From a virus, in the IMG/VR virus record IMGVR_UViG_3300046467_000345, positions 1 to 22,647 of that record: a stretch of 22,647 bases of DNA. One strand, written 5' to 3'. The position numbers and the translations under genes were made by a program. Shown piece after piece: positions 1 to 17,855 of this stretch (its first letter is position 1; each line of letters begins with the position of its first letter). Under the pieces are notes generated by a model that was given only the letters and a program-made list of their open reading frames with translations, made no database searches and had not been told where the DNA came from.

Positions 1-1
1 A

Positions 2-811
2 AAGATAGATGGTATAAATTGTATCACTTTCCAACCGAACACTATTTTTTATGCAGTCGATGTTAATTCTGCATTAGGAAAACAAATTTCAACAGCAAAT
101 TTTGGTATAGTCTTTCATACTACTTACAGTGGGGCAACAATCGATGGATTAACTGCATCATTTGGTGCAAACATTAAAGGGTTAGGACACAGTAACGATG
201 TGTGGGTTGACGATGCAACTTATAAAGATATGAGTGGAAACGCATCCATGACTGCAAAAGAGACACTTAAATTAACTCAAGAGTTATCGACAGTGGGAAA
301 AGCATTCCATGGTATCACTGCAAAAGACTTGGGTAAGTTTAGAGAACTTCAAGACATGATAACGACAAAGGGAGCTGGTGCATCATATAAGACATACATA
401 AACACACAAATTAGAAGTGGTAGTTTTAAACCCACAGCAGATGATTATCTTAACCATTTTCAATCTTATTGGGCAGATAAAGTAGTTGCAAAGGTTAAGA
501 TGCAGAAGACAAAAGAAATTAAACAAGAGATCGGTGAACAGATTTATAATGATCTGAGAGGCCTTAAAAAATTCTTAACAAATTTAACAATCTTTCAATC
601 ACATATTGTTAGTGCAAAACAGATTATTGTCACCACCCTAAATAGAGTTAAGTCTGTAGGAACATTTAATAAAACTGATAAAGGATTTGTTGCAGTAAAT
701 CCCGAAGGTTATGTTGCAATAAACTTGAAAACTGGAAAAGCAGTTAAACTGGTTGATAGAATGGAGTTTGCATATAACAACTTCACCGCAGCGAAGGCAT
801 GGGATAAATGA
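2..811 (+). CDS. DUF6267-like phage protein, 3' part (5' truncated)
   Basis: The reading frame is open from base 2, so the gene enters from upstream and only about the last 269 codons are visible. I recognise conserved blocks of a protein common in T4-like marine phages that I recall as DUF6267: ITFQPNTIFYAV, FHTTYSG, VWVDDATYKD and the C-terminal EGYVAINLKTGKAVKLVDRMEFAYNNF. From memory, full-length members carry an N-terminal K-x-D-G-like block, suggesting a nucleotidyltransferase or ligase-like fold, but that part is outside the window. An ATG-like start near 200 is only internal, because the conserved ITFQPNT block lies upstream of it. The stop overlaps the next start as ATGA (808-811), so the two are probably translationally coupled. 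Family fairly likely; biochemical function unknown. Confidence 0.75.
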   Translation, partial: KIDGINCITFQPNTIFYAVDVNSALGKQISTANFGIVFHTTYSGATIDGLTASFGANIKGLGHSNDVWVDDATYKDMSGNASMTAKETLKLTQELSTVGKAFHGITAKDLGKFRELQDMITTKGAGASYKTYINTQIRSGSFKPTADDYLNHFQSYWADKVVAKVKMQKTKEIKQEIGEQIYNDLRGLKKFLTNLTIFQSHIVSAKQIIVTTLNRVKSVGTFNKTDKGFVAVNPEGYVAINLKTGKAVKLVDRMEFAYNNFTAAKAWDK

Positions 812-1119
812 TAACTTTAACAGACAATGCAATACAAAAACTTAAAGAGTTTTTAGAACCTACAGAAATAGTCAGGTTGGCTGTTGAAGGTGGTGGTTGT
901 CATGGGTTTCAATATAGATTTGGAGTTTCCCCATCAACTGAAATTGCAGAGGATGATTACATTATAGAAGACAAAATCAGATTAGCTGTAGACCCTGTTA
1001 GTTATATGTATCTAGAAAATGTAGAAATAGATTATGAAGAAAAGACATTCAATTCAGCATTTAAAATCAATAACCCTGATACGAAGGCAACTTGTAGTTG
1101 TGGAAGCAGTTTTTCATAA
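808..1119 (+). CDS. A-type iron-sulfur cluster carrier (IscA/ErpA/HesB-like)
   Basis: A 103-residue protein, the usual length of A-type carriers, which accept and hand on Fe-S clusters during cluster assembly in the cytoplasm. The three family cysteines are present: C31 in GGGCHGFQY, and C96 and C98 in the C-terminal CSCGSSF. The N-terminal ITLTDNAIQKLKEFL matches the family's opening helix. The start ATG overlaps the preceding stop (ATGA), and the stop TAA overlaps the next start (TAATG), so it sits in a tight co-translated cluster. HesB-like genes occur in many marine T4-like phages. What it serves is not shown; Fe-dependent proteins elsewhere in the window are candidate clients (inference). 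Confidence 0.92.
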   Translation: MITLTDNAIQKLKEFLEPTEIVRLAVEGGGCHGFQYRFGVSPSTEIAEDDYIIEDKIRLAVDPVSYMYLENVEIDYEEKTFNSAFKINNPDTKATCSCGSSFS

Positions 1120-2408
1120 TGAAGAAATTTAACAACATGATAACCGAAGGAAAGGATAAAGGAGCAGTGTTTACCTTTGGTAGATTCAATCCACCAACCG
1201 TAGGTCATGGAAAACTTGTTGATACATTGCTTAAAGCAACTAGAGGTGGATATAAACCTGTCATTTATACCTCACATACAGAAGACCCAACAAAAAATCC
1301 TCTGAAATATAAAGACAAGATTAAATGGCTTCGCAAATTCTTTAAAAGGGTAACAGTCGTTGATACTACTGCAAGAACAATATTTGATATTGTCACAGAT
1401 TTATACGATAAAGGATTCAATCAAATACGCATGGTTGTAGGTTCAGATAGAGTTATGGAGTTTGATAAACTTATCAACACTTATAATGGTAAATATGGAA
1501 GACACGGACACTACAATTTTGACAAAATAGAGGTCATATCTGCTGGAGAACGTGATCCTGATGCAGATGATATAAGTGGAATGAGTGCATCAAAAATGAG
1601 AATGTTTGCAGACAAGGGTGATTTCGAGGAATTTAAGAAAGGAGTTCCATCTAGAAATAAAAAAGAGGCCGAAGGTCTATGGAAAGATGTTCGTAAAGGA
1701 ATGGGAATCCGTGAAGAGACTATCCCTGATTACATTTATGAAGATTTAATCATGGAAGGTGTTTATGACTCAGGAATCTTTAAGGCAGTATTTCTTATGG
1801 GTGGGCCTGCCAGTGGTAAATCAGCAGTGGTTAAACAACTTGCGTTAAAAGCATTAGGACTTAAATTGGTTAATACTGATTCTGCATTTGAATCGGGATT
1901 AAAGAAAGCAGGTTACTCTTTAGACATGAGAACTATGGATTCAGCTGTTAGAGACCCTATTCGTCAACATGCAAAGAGAATAACAGGTAAAGGTCTAGAT
2001 GGATATATTGAGGGTAGACTTGGTTTAATCTTTGACACTACCAGTGCAAAATCATCTAAAATTAAAGCATATAAAACAAATTTAGACCTTCTTGGATATG
2101 AATATAAAATGATTTATGTAAGAACCTCACTTGCAAATGCTCAAGCAAGAAATGCAGAACGAGCAAGAAAACTTCCCGAAAAAATAGTTCAAAAGGACTG
2201 GGAAGATGCACAAAAAAATGCACAATATTTTAGAGGAATGTTTGGTGTAGATTTCGTTGAAATATTAAATGATGATACGTTTGCTGACTTAAAGAAAAAA
2301 GCAGCTGCACTCTATAGTAGAATGTTAGGATGGACGACAAAGTTCCCAACAAACAAAAAAGCTATATTATGGAAGCAACGAGAGTTAATCATGAAAAAAC
2401 ATAAATAG
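1119..2408 (+). CDS. NadR-like bifunctional nucleotidyltransferase / P-loop kinase with capsid-targeting-like leader
   Basis: A 429-residue two-domain enzyme. Residues about 16-160 form a cytidylyltransferase-like domain with the HxGH-type signature GRFNPPTVGH (21-30) and a distal SGMSASKMR block, comparable to the ISSTxxR motif of NMN/pantetheine-phosphate adenylyltransferases. A second domain begins near residue 224 with a Walker A motif GGPASGKS and resembles zeta-toxin/AAA_33-type kinases. This resembles NadR (NMN adenylyltransferase plus nucleoside kinase), so a role in NAD salvage is plausible but not proven. I chose ATG 1119, overlapping the previous stop, rather than an in-frame ATG at 1098. 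With this start the first ten residues, MKKFNNMITE followed by G, closely resemble the T4 internal-protein capsid-targeting peptide (MKTYQEFIAE, cleaved after E). It may therefore be packaged. Confidence 0.8.
   Translation: MKKFNNMITEGKDKGAVFTFGRFNPPTVGHGKLVDTLLKATRGGYKPVIYTSHTEDPTKNPLKYKDKIKWLRKFFKRVTVVDTTARTIFDIVTDLYDKGFNQIRMVVGSDRVMEFDKLINTYNGKYGRHGHYNFDKIEVISAGERDPDADDISGMSASKMRMFADKGDFEEFKKGVPSRNKKEAEGLWKDVRKGMGIREETIPDYIYEDLIMEGVYDSGIFKAVFLMGGPASGKSAVVKQLALKALGLKLVNTDSAFESGLKKAGYSLDMRTMDSAVRDPIRQHAKRITGKGLDGYIEGRLGLIFDTTSAKSSKIKAYKTNLDLLGYEYKMIYVRTSLANAQARNAERARKLPEKIVQKDWEDAQKNAQYFRGMFGVDFVEILNDDTFADLKKKAAALYSRMLGWTTKFPTNKKAILWKQRELIMKKHK
2400..2407 (+). promoter_or_regulatory. T4-type late promoter (CATAAATA)
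   Basis: CATAAATA matches the T4 late -10 element TATAAATA at 7 of 8 positions. It overlaps the end of the upstream gene and ends exactly 5 nt before ATG 2413. In T4 the late start site lies about 6 nt after the octamer, so the predicted +1 is the A of the ATG. There is no Shine-Dalgarno in front of that start. Confidence 0.7.
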
Positions 2409-8301: not shown

Positions 8302-8706
8302 ATGAAAAAATTTAGTCAATTTATACAAGAACAATACGGACATCAAGAAGATGCTGGTTTATCCTCTCAGCATGTTCCCCACGACATTGATGATCCTGAT
8401 GTTCAAAGAAAAATAAACGCAATTCTAGGTCATACTGCAAGTTCAGAATATATGACACCTGAGGCTGCAATCGGTCAAATGGAAGCAAAACTTTCATTAC
8501 TCGGTTTAGCACCTCAAGATGGCGACAGAGAATTTAGTGAAAGTGGAACAATAGATATTCAAATGTCAAGATACGGTGACATCACAGGTAAATCAGTAGA
8601 TACACCTTTTGATGAAATCGAACATGAATCAAGAGATTATACCTTATCAGTTCGATACGAACAGTTAGAAACAGGTAGTTATAAAGTTTACGCAAACTTC
8701 TCTTAA
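8302..8706 (+). CDS. Conserved late protein with N-terminal capsid-targeting-like peptide
   Basis: A 134-residue protein. Residues 1-10, MKKFSQFIQE, closely match the T4 internal-protein capsid-targeting sequence MKTYQEFIAE in length, spacing of aromatics and the final I-x-E protease site. The remainder contains HDIDDPDVQRKINAILG, a helical TPEAAIGQMEAKLSLLGL and a beta-rich C-terminus (YTLSVRYEQLETGSYKVYANFS), an arrangement I recall from T4-like cyanophage hypothetical proteins. AAGGAA upstream of the ATG is a good ribosome binding site. I infer a prohead-packaged internal protein trimmed after residue 10; the body's function is unknown. A hairpin and late promoter separate it from the next gene. 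Confidence 0.72.
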   Translation: MKKFSQFIQEQYGHQEDAGLSSQHVPHDIDDPDVQRKINAILGHTASSEYMTPEAAIGQMEAKLSLLGLAPQDGDREFSESGTIDIQMSRYGDITGKSVDTPFDEIEHESRDYTLSVRYEQLETGSYKVYANFS

Positions 8707-9120: not shown

Positions 9121-9196
9121 GCTGGTGTAGCTCAGTTGGTAGAGCACCTCACTTGTAATGAGGATGTCGGGAGTTCAAATCTCTCCACCAGCTCCA
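9121..9196 (+). tRNA. tRNA-Thr (anticodon TGT), CCA encoded
   Basis: A full cloverleaf can be drawn. The acceptor stem is GCTGGTG (9121-9127) with CACCAGC (9186-9192). The D stem is GCTC/GAGC. The anticodon stem CCTCA/TGAGG encloses loop CTTGTAA, giving anticodon TGT at 9154-9156 (Thr, reading ACA). The T stem GGGAG/CTCTC has one G-T pair and loop TTCAAAT. The discriminator is T (9193) and CCA (9194-9196) is encoded. It sits between two late genes and would be made as part of a late transcript. Phage tRNA-Thr(UGU) is also known in T4. Confidence 0.96.
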
Positions 9197-9209
9197 GCCA
9201 TTCAGTTAC

Positions 9210-9217
9210 CATAAATA
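9210..9217 (+). promoter_or_regulatory. T4-type late promoter (CATAAATA)
   Basis: CATAAATA ends exactly 5 nt before ATG 9223, giving a predicted start site on the A of the ATG. There is no Shine-Dalgarno. It lies 13 nt after the tRNA 3' end. Confidence 0.72.
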
Positions 9218-9222
9218 GATAT

Positions 9223-9816
9223 ATGAGGATTATAGACACTTTAATTGTATTCAGAATACTCAAGATGTTAACAACACCTTGGGAGAAACAATCTGCATAC
9301 AAGCTTGGATTTATTGATAAGGCAGGGAAACGAATAAAATCTATTCCCCATCCCGAAAATAAAAATCAATATATTGATAATAAACCTAAAACATCGGAAG
9401 AAAAGGCTTCTTTGACACCTTTGCACAGGTTAGTCTTTAACCTTAAGAAAATAATAAACAAAGTTCCGTTTGGAAAAACTGCATTTGCCTCTTACGCAGT
9501 TGCGATTGCACTGTTAAAAGAAGAAGCAGAATTAGATGAAGATCAAGCAAATGAACTATGTGAAAAGTTCTATAGTTATTTAAAAGATAATGATTTAATA
9601 ACCTCAAGTATGATCGTAGAGATTCAAGAATTAACTACAATAGGAACAGGTATTAAATACAGATTCAGAAGACCGTTAGAACAAAACGACAAAATTTATC
9701 CACTTAAAGAAGCGGTAGAGATTGTTGCAGAACATAGTCAGATTTTTGGTATTAACATATGGATTGGTTTTTCACAGAACGAAAGGGTATTGGTAACAGC
9801 AGATGACGTATATTAA
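9223..9816 (+). CDS. Conserved marine T4-like phage protein, unknown function
   Basis: A 197-residue protein starting MRIIDTLIVFRILKMLTTPWEKQSAYKLGFIDKAGKRIK, followed by LHRLVFNLKKIINKVPFGKTAFASYAVAIALLKEE. This combination is one I recall from many T4-like cyanophage and pelagiphage genomes, without an assigned function. The frame extends upstream to an ATG at 9136, but that start lies inside the tRNA gene and its first codons are tRNA sequence. ATG 9223 is preferred because it lies 5 nt after a late promoter and begins the conserved block. It contains helices and a beta-rich region (GTGIKYRFRRPL) but no clear transmembrane segment. The last 14 nt overlap the next gene. Confidence 0.75.
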   Translation: MRIIDTLIVFRILKMLTTPWEKQSAYKLGFIDKAGKRIKSIPHPENKNQYIDNKPKTSEEKASLTPLHRLVFNLKKIINKVPFGKTAFASYAVAIALLKEEAELDEDQANELCEKFYSYLKDNDLITSSMIVEIQELTTIGTGIKYRFRRPLEQNDKIYPLKEAVEIVAEHSQIFGINIWIGFSQNERVLVTADDVY

Positions 9817-10075
9817 ATCATTTAAAGAAATAGTTAACGAAGGACAGTTCTCAAGAATTGCCGCAGACATTGAAGATGGTCTTTCACCACAGAAAATTGC
9901 AAAGAAATATGGTGTTGCACTTAAACAAGTCAAACAATGGGCAGCCGAGTGGAAGAAACTTGGGGAAGATGCTCCCATGAATGCAACAGGGGCTGCTGTG
10001 TCTACAGATAAACCTATAGTTAGAAAGAAAAAACAATATGAGATTTGGAAAAGAGCAGCGATAGAACAGAAATAA
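9803..10075 (+). CDS. Small helix-turn-helix protein with capsid-targeting-like N-terminus
   Basis: A 90-residue basic protein. Residues 27-52 (LSPQKIAKKYGVALKQVKQWAAEWKK) form a typical helix-turn-helix, so DNA binding is likely. Residues 4-13, IKSFKEIVNE followed by G, fit the capsid-targeting/prohead-protease pattern, with cleavage predicted after E13. The start overlaps the previous gene by 14 nt and has no Shine-Dalgarno, so it is probably translationally coupled. If packaged, it would be a DNA-binding protein delivered with the genome (inference). An alternative is an ordinary late regulatory protein. Confidence 0.7.
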   Translation: MTYIKSFKEIVNEGQFSRIAADIEDGLSPQKIAKKYGVALKQVKQWAAEWKKLGEDAPMNATGAAVSTDKPIVRKKKQYEIWKRAAIEQK

Positions 10076-17416: not shown

Positions 17417-17721
17417 GTCCTATTATCTTACCCAGTAAAGAAGAACTAAAGAAATCTAACCGATGGTTCAAATCAGCTACACCTAAGTATACCTTTGATT
17501 GGTATCTTAAATGGGTGGCAAGTATATTTGTTCTTGTGGCCATGTCAATGCGTGGAGTAGAAGGATTACAATTATATGATTTAATTTTTTCAATTATTGG
17601 AATCACTGGTTGGTTAGTGGTCTCGGCAATATGGGAAGACAGGGCGTTAATTATGTTAAACTCTTTTGGTCTAATATTATTGCTAAAGAATTTAGTTACC
17701 ACACTGGTGGTAGTCACATGA
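17413..17721 (+). CDS. Small integral membrane protein (about three TM segments)
   Basis: A 102-residue protein. A polar N-terminus (LPSKEELKKSNRWFKSATPKYT) is followed by three hydrophobic segments: about 30-48 (WYLKWVASIFVLVAMSM), 54-73 and 80-101. WLVVSAIWEDRALIMLNSFGL resembles small cyanophage membrane proteins that I recall as DUF6552 (unverified). It overlaps both neighbours by 4 nt (ATGA). Expression with RNR and redox genes suggests an early inner-membrane role, but there is no motif for transport or catalysis. Confidence 0.7.
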   Translation: MSPIILPSKEELKKSNRWFKSATPKYTFDWYLKWVASIFVLVAMSMRGVEGLQLYDLIFSIIGITGWLVVSAIWEDRALIMLNSFGLILLLKNLVTTLVVVT

Positions 17722-17855
17722 AGATTTATAAATGTATCGTATGTGGTCATGAATATAATGAATGGGAAGAGGATGTTCTTTTTAAAGACCTTCCTGACGA
17801 TTGGGAATGTCCTGATTGTTTCGTAGGAAAAGACATGTTTGAGGAATGGCAATGA
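17718..17855 (+). CDS. Short-loop rubredoxin
   Basis: A 45-residue protein with the rubredoxin iron site: C6-x-x-C9-G and C31-P-x-C34, plus the family blocks F-K-D-L-P-D-D-W before the second knuckle and VGKDMFE after it. The Cys pairs are 21 residues apart instead of the usual 29 or so, so the loop after Tyr13 is shortened. Rubredoxins carry one electron in a mononuclear Fe(SCys)4 centre. ATG 17718 is the start because it overlaps the previous stop as ATGA. An upstream in-frame ATG at 17610 would place 36 codons over the membrane-protein gene. A partner reductase is not seen here. Confidence 0.88.
   Translation: MKIYKCIVCGHEYNEWEEDVLFKDLPDDWECPDCFVGKDMFEEWQ

Follow-up and report, generated by a model that had tools for sequence, protein, structure and literature searches.

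The stretch of DNA analyzed here (the window) comprises 22,647 bp and is the virus record of a marine T4-like (Kyanoviridae-type) phage, and its closest sequenced isolates are the Pelagibacter phage HTVC008M and the Methylophilales phages Melnitz. The main feature of the locus is a 429-aa protein encoded at positions 1119-2408 (+), a leader-bearing two-domain enzyme whose components are listed in Table 1 together with related features of the window. At 1119, its ATG overlaps the stop codon (TAA) of the Fe-S carrier gene that lies before it (808-1119). A longer reading from a TTG at 1098 is available, and homologues with differing upstream sequence begin at the same Met or Val. Upstream, positions 1-811 (+) encode the C-terminal part of a DUF6267 protein; since a single 764-position profile (PHROG 455) spans both the DUF6267 domain and the adenylyltransferase domain, natural fusions of the two are suggested. 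Additionally, a tRNA-Thr(TGT) gene was identified within the gene cluster at 9121-9196 (+). The TTG start called for ORF 9136-9816 (at 9136) falls inside this tRNA gene, and the real start is therefore further downstream. Positions 17718-17855 (+) encode a 45-aa rubredoxin-like protein (MKIYKCIVCGHEYNEWEE...CPDCF), the likeness being judged by eye. The late-promoter motif ATAAATA showed no excess in the window, with 11 occurrences vs. approximately 10 expected.

Table 1. Features of the window related to the leader-bearing enzyme. Arrows here and in the text mark cut sites or candidate cut sites.
Feature	Positions	Strand	Support
A-type Fe-S carrier (IscA/HesB-like)	808-1119	+	PF01521, E=5e-18
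Leader MKKFNNMITE, a putative capsid-targeting sequence predicted to be cut by the prohead protease after E10 (after base 1148)	1119-1148	+	Conservation, controls
Adenylyltransferase-type domain, residues 11-196; GRFNPPTVGH 21-30, SASKMR 156-161	1149-1706	+	AlphaFold pLDDT 91, PDB fold matches
Domain linker between GIRE (I-R-E 197-199) and DLIME↓G (I-M-E 211-213), with an internal site of the prohead protease predicted after E213	1707-1757	+	Motifs 26/26
P-loop kinase domain GVYDSGIFKAVFLMGGPASGKS..., polynucleotide-kinase/PSTK-like	1758-2405	+	PF13671, E=1e-9; Foldseek
Second leader copy MKKFSQFIQE, on 134-aa protein 8302-8706	8302-8331	+	Same-type leader in nearly all family variants
Third leader copy MTYIKSFKEIVNE↓G, on HTH protein 9803-10075	9803-9841	+	HTH module also after FDE↓G in L007

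As modelled, domain 1 shows a generic fold of the adenylyltransferase type, matching the PPAT, NadD, and FAD synthetase folds in the PDB with a TMt of up to 0.67. The GRFNPPTxGH and SASKxR motifs are kept, with G and H invariant in T-V-G-H, so that the fold and both motifs of the adenylyltransferase superfamily (HxGH / SxTxxR) are present, with PF01467 just under its cut-off. No significant match was obtained when the PDB was searched with this domain by phmmer and by profile, and the NadR, NadD, and NMNAT models scored far under their cut-offs (for TIGR01526, 15.4 bits vs. 341). Judging from its predicted structure, domain 2 resembles a polynucleotide kinase or PSTK, with a Foldseek TMt of 0.70 to T4 polynucleotide kinase (1ly1), T4 and bacterial polynucleotide kinases and PSTK among the closest solved structures, and AAA_33 likewise among the best matches. 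Given these best matches, the ribosylnicotinamide kinase of NadR was rejected as the identity of domain 2. The preliminary description had named the protein a NadR-like NMN-adenylyltransferase/kinase; the succession of an adenylyltransferase-type domain and a P-loop kinase stands, but the missed cut-offs and the nature of the kinase reduce "NadR-like" to a resemblance in domain order. Regarding partner genes, NAMPT was present in 0/5 relatives, and NadE was confined, among the relatives checked, to G002 and the annotation of HTVC008M, so that the data do not support a full set of NAD salvage genes.

Codons 1-10 of the enzyme read MKKFNNMITE and codon 11 encodes Gly. In T4 (NC_000866), internal protein IPIII starts with MKTYQEFIAE↓A and IPI with MKTFKEF. 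The pairwise match to the IPIII leader is weak because only four of the ten residues are identical (M1, K2, I8, and E10), F4 standing in place of Y4 and M7 in place of F7. When aligned with 26 non-redundant close homologues (mutual identity <92%), E10 was found in 26/26 and K2 in 25/26, while F or L occupied position 4 and A or G position 11 in 24 each. Position 7 is mostly F/W, position 8 is L/I/V where ungapped, and positions 3, 5, 6, and 9 vary freely. The same residues are kept in the cyanophage-type homologues (n=38, non-redundant), with K2 in 37/38, F4 in 36/38, and F7 and E10 in 38/38, bringing the invariance of E10 to 64 non-redundant homologues. In T4, mutagenesis linked residues 4 and 7 to targeting and residues 8 and 10 to processing (PMC9026906). 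The window leader fits this targeting rule with its hydrophobic F4/M7, and its I8 and E10 followed by G11 fit the L/I-x-E cleavage motif, to which HTVC008M and one F-x-E subgroup are the exceptions. The HTVC008M adenylyltransferase starts with MKTLKELLRKK, keeping K2/L4/L7/L8 with K at position 10, and processing is therefore not universal. Homologues of the subgroup (MKTFKSF-NEA) have F at P3, that is, F-N-E in place of L-x-E, yet their capsid protein has SLDE↓A.

The K-anchored leader pattern occurred at 3/35 ORF starts of the window, compared with 2/14,477 internal start-type codons when the control sequences were pooled. In S-SCSM1, the strict 10-residue rule was matched by 2/282 genes and 0/1010 internal Met, with a mean of 0.03 after shuffling; a chance match was rejected on the basis of both controls. 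A looser pattern, which allowed [LI]xE at any point within residues 1-17, was uninformative in the same phage (41 matches vs. 37 expected). The T4-like leader that had been proposed for the enzyme is thus confirmed: pairwise identity is low, but the pattern stands above the controls and its key positions are conserved in the homologue alignment.

The same leader type was identified on several unrelated proteins, namely those at 8302-8706 and 9803-10075 in the window and a K/R-rich 128-aa protein in relatives. In the 8302-8706 family (for example, MKTFKNFLFE, MKKFKDFINE, and MKTFKTYLVE, with a partial leader in HTVC008M), the residues right after the leader vary, while the leader itself is kept in nearly all homologues. 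The HTH module of 9803-10075 also occurs in the relative L007 inside a 698-aa protein, immediately after FDE↓G. The K/R-rich protein lies just upstream of the enzyme in relatives (L031:9618-9998, with 32% K+R; L007:9462-9830; also L016 and L076) and bears leaders such as MKSFREYLEE and MKSFKEFIGE. This basic module, possibly a DNA-binding internal head protein, carries the leader when it forms a separate gene; in fusions with the protein before it, the joint reads L-x-E↓V.

A gp21-type protease (PF03420) was encoded in 5/5 long relative contigs holding the enzyme. As a 22.6-kb fragment, the window contains no head genes, and its own protease was therefore not seen. Near the propeptide end of the relatives' major capsid proteins, the candidate sites TLEE↓A, TLDE↓A, SLDE↓A, FLAE↓A, and ILTE↓A were identified, and the T4 major capsid protein site FLTE↓A resembles these L-x-E↓A sites; the exact positions of the cuts in relatives are predictions from sequence.

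Homologues of the enzyme have been detected in purified cyanophage particles. Four were compared, all of them with the leader: the putative cytidylyltransferase of cluster T4-GC190 in S-SM1 virions (PMC3037559), which starts with MKKFSAFLNE↓A; ORF91 (NMNAT) of S-SCSM1 (PMC9602691), MKSFLQFLKE↓A; ORF154 of S-CREM2, with a peptide count of 3 (PMC10665884), MKNFSSFLTE↓A; and S-SZBM1_140, with a peptide count of 2 (PMC9146016), MRFRQFIIE↓A. The NMNAT of S-CBWM1 is likewise reported in virions. In S-SCSM1, the annotation lists the neighbours 89, 90, 92, 93, 95, and 97 among the virion proteins, and the cluster is placed as that of the window, between helicase-side genes and primase-nrdA-nrdB. The four virion papers reported no mature N-terminal peptide of these homologues, and no description of the leader or of its cleavage on these proteins was found in them or among the papers retrieved on capsid targeting in cyanophages and other marine phages.

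A second conserved E↓G site, absent from the preliminary description, lies at the domain junction. The enzyme contains eight [LIVMF]-x-E motifs and, besides the leader, only those at 197-199 (GI-x-E) and 211-213 (DLI-x-E↓G) are conserved in 26/26 homologues, both with a free P2 residue. Specifically, the junction reads L-(I or L)-x-E↓G in all 26 with seven different P2 residues. Linker residues 200-204 and 206-210 have a pLDDT <50, a value found elsewhere only in the leader and at 146-149. HTVC008M and Melnitz encode the kinase separately, in genes starting with MIPFILKE↓GLYDPGIFKA and MKTFAELQE↓GVYDPNIFKA, respectively, and in Atu_ph07 it follows VTE↓G within a larger protein. The separate kinases thus have their own leader ending at the same E↓G as the junction of the fused enzyme. 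Because of this correspondence and of the conservation of the junction, the precursor is probably cut in two; judged on the sequence pattern, we consider it somewhat likely, with less certainty than for the leader, that a cut at L-I-M-E213↓G yields two enzymes inside the head.

We consider the leader to be a working T4-type capsid-targeting sequence, with a probability of roughly 0.8. The proposed capsid targeting is well supported by conservation according to the T4 rule, by the presence of the leader across different architectures, by the gp21-type protease and capsid-protein sites of relatives, and by the four virion-detected homologues. As the tag fits the T4 loading rule and four tagged cyanophage relatives were found in virions, the phage probably ships a nucleotide enzyme with its DNA. 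In the proposed mechanism, leader residues 2-7 would draw the enzyme precursor into the prohead core, where the phage gp21-type protease would cut it after I-T-E10, the predicted E10/G11 site, with a probable second cut at the domain junction. The mature particle would then hold two separate free proteins, an adenylyltransferase-type enzyme and a polynucleotide-kinase-like kinase, and both could enter the host with the DNA, able to act before any phage gene expression. We infer these cuts, the injection, and the catalyzed reaction.

Other explanations were weighed against this reading. The leader could have no capsid role, either belonging to the enzyme fold as its normal N-terminus or matching by chance, in keeping with its 4/10 identity to T4 IPIII and with its position in the window-type homologues, where it adjoins the first strand of the fold. 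However, the cyanophage-type leader (MKSFFQFLSE↓A type) is retained in the 38 homologues though it is located approximately 100 residues from the catalytic fold, whereas the homologues in 121Q and S-RIM44 lack a leader and their fold begins at the N-terminus. The leader is also found on unrelated neighbour proteins, residues 1-11 are disordered in the model (pLDDT <50), and the rate at internal codons is minimal, which leaves this explanation largely refuted and very improbable.

An alternative that accepts targeting holds that the leader reaches the prohead core but usually stays uncut, or that it serves to bind a different protein of the core, with the E↓G motifs having a structural role. 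The absence of E10 in HTVC008M would agree with it, as would the T4 variant with Asp at position 10, which still targets without being processed (PMC9026906). Nevertheless, an invariant P1 Glu in both homologue sets, a usually small P1' residue, and a free P2 mirror what is seen at the capsid-protein sites, and we regard this alternative as unlikely. Carry-over would be another explanation, the enzyme acting only in the infected cell; the S-SCSM1 authors themselves noted that non-structural proteins may be carried over after CsCl purification (PMC9602691), and few peptides were recovered from S-CREM2 and S-SZBM1. Against it, leader-bearing homologues were detected in at least four cyanophages prepared independently of each other, and gene-cluster neighbours are also among the virion proteins, making it quite unlikely.

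The capsid-targeting reading may extend beyond this enzyme. The kinase, HTH, and basic modules are each encoded in some cases by a small leader-bearing gene and in others within a longer protein, directly after (L/I/F)-x-E. Tentatively, and at slightly less than even odds, marine T4-like phages could build an injected proteome from modules bounded by prohead-protease sites, the protease freeing separate enzymes in the capsid in polyprotein fashion. What appears new is an enzyme as the cargo of T4-type capsid targeting in phages other than the T-evens, together with a second cut that is likely to occur inside this cargo. The virion papers left unexplained how cytidylyltransferase/NMNAT-like proteins enter cyanophage particles, and the leader would supply a mechanism, widening the T4 mode of capsid targeting to include a very common family of marine phages and making packaged cargoes predictable from sequence. 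The delivery of a nucleotide-metabolism enzyme at infection also becomes testable, e.g., in repairing NAD or nucleic-acid damage from host defence. With NAD-restoring phage pathways known and T4 internal proteins such as IPI acting against host defence, a role of the enzyme in restoring NAD is possible, although speculative.

When compared to known systems, NadR likewise combines a P-loop kinase with a preceding domain of the adenylyltransferase superfamily and differs in the identity of both domains, as described above. The cyanophage "cytidylyltransferase/NMNAT" proteins of T4-GC190 (S-SM1, S-SCSM1, S-CREM2, and S-SZBM1) share the enzyme domain, the leader, virion presence, and, in S-SCSM1 and S-SZBM1, the genome neighbourhood, but have no fused PNK-like kinase domain. 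The T4 Alt ADP-ribosyltransferase is also a nucleotide-using enzyme packaged in the head and processed by gp21, although it belongs to another enzyme class and has a shorter propeptide of 7 residues (PMC9026906). Finally, T4 IPI, IPII, and IPIII, of which IPI is an anti-defence protein and IPIII is required for infecting one E. coli strain (PMC9391042), carry approximately 10 N-terminal residues of the form M-K-x-aromatic-x-x-hydrophobic-I/L-x-E followed by a small residue, and there too the leader is common to several unrelated proteins of one phage. Their cargo consists of small proteins, in contrast to the two-domain nucleotide enzyme described here, with its apparent second protease site between the domains.
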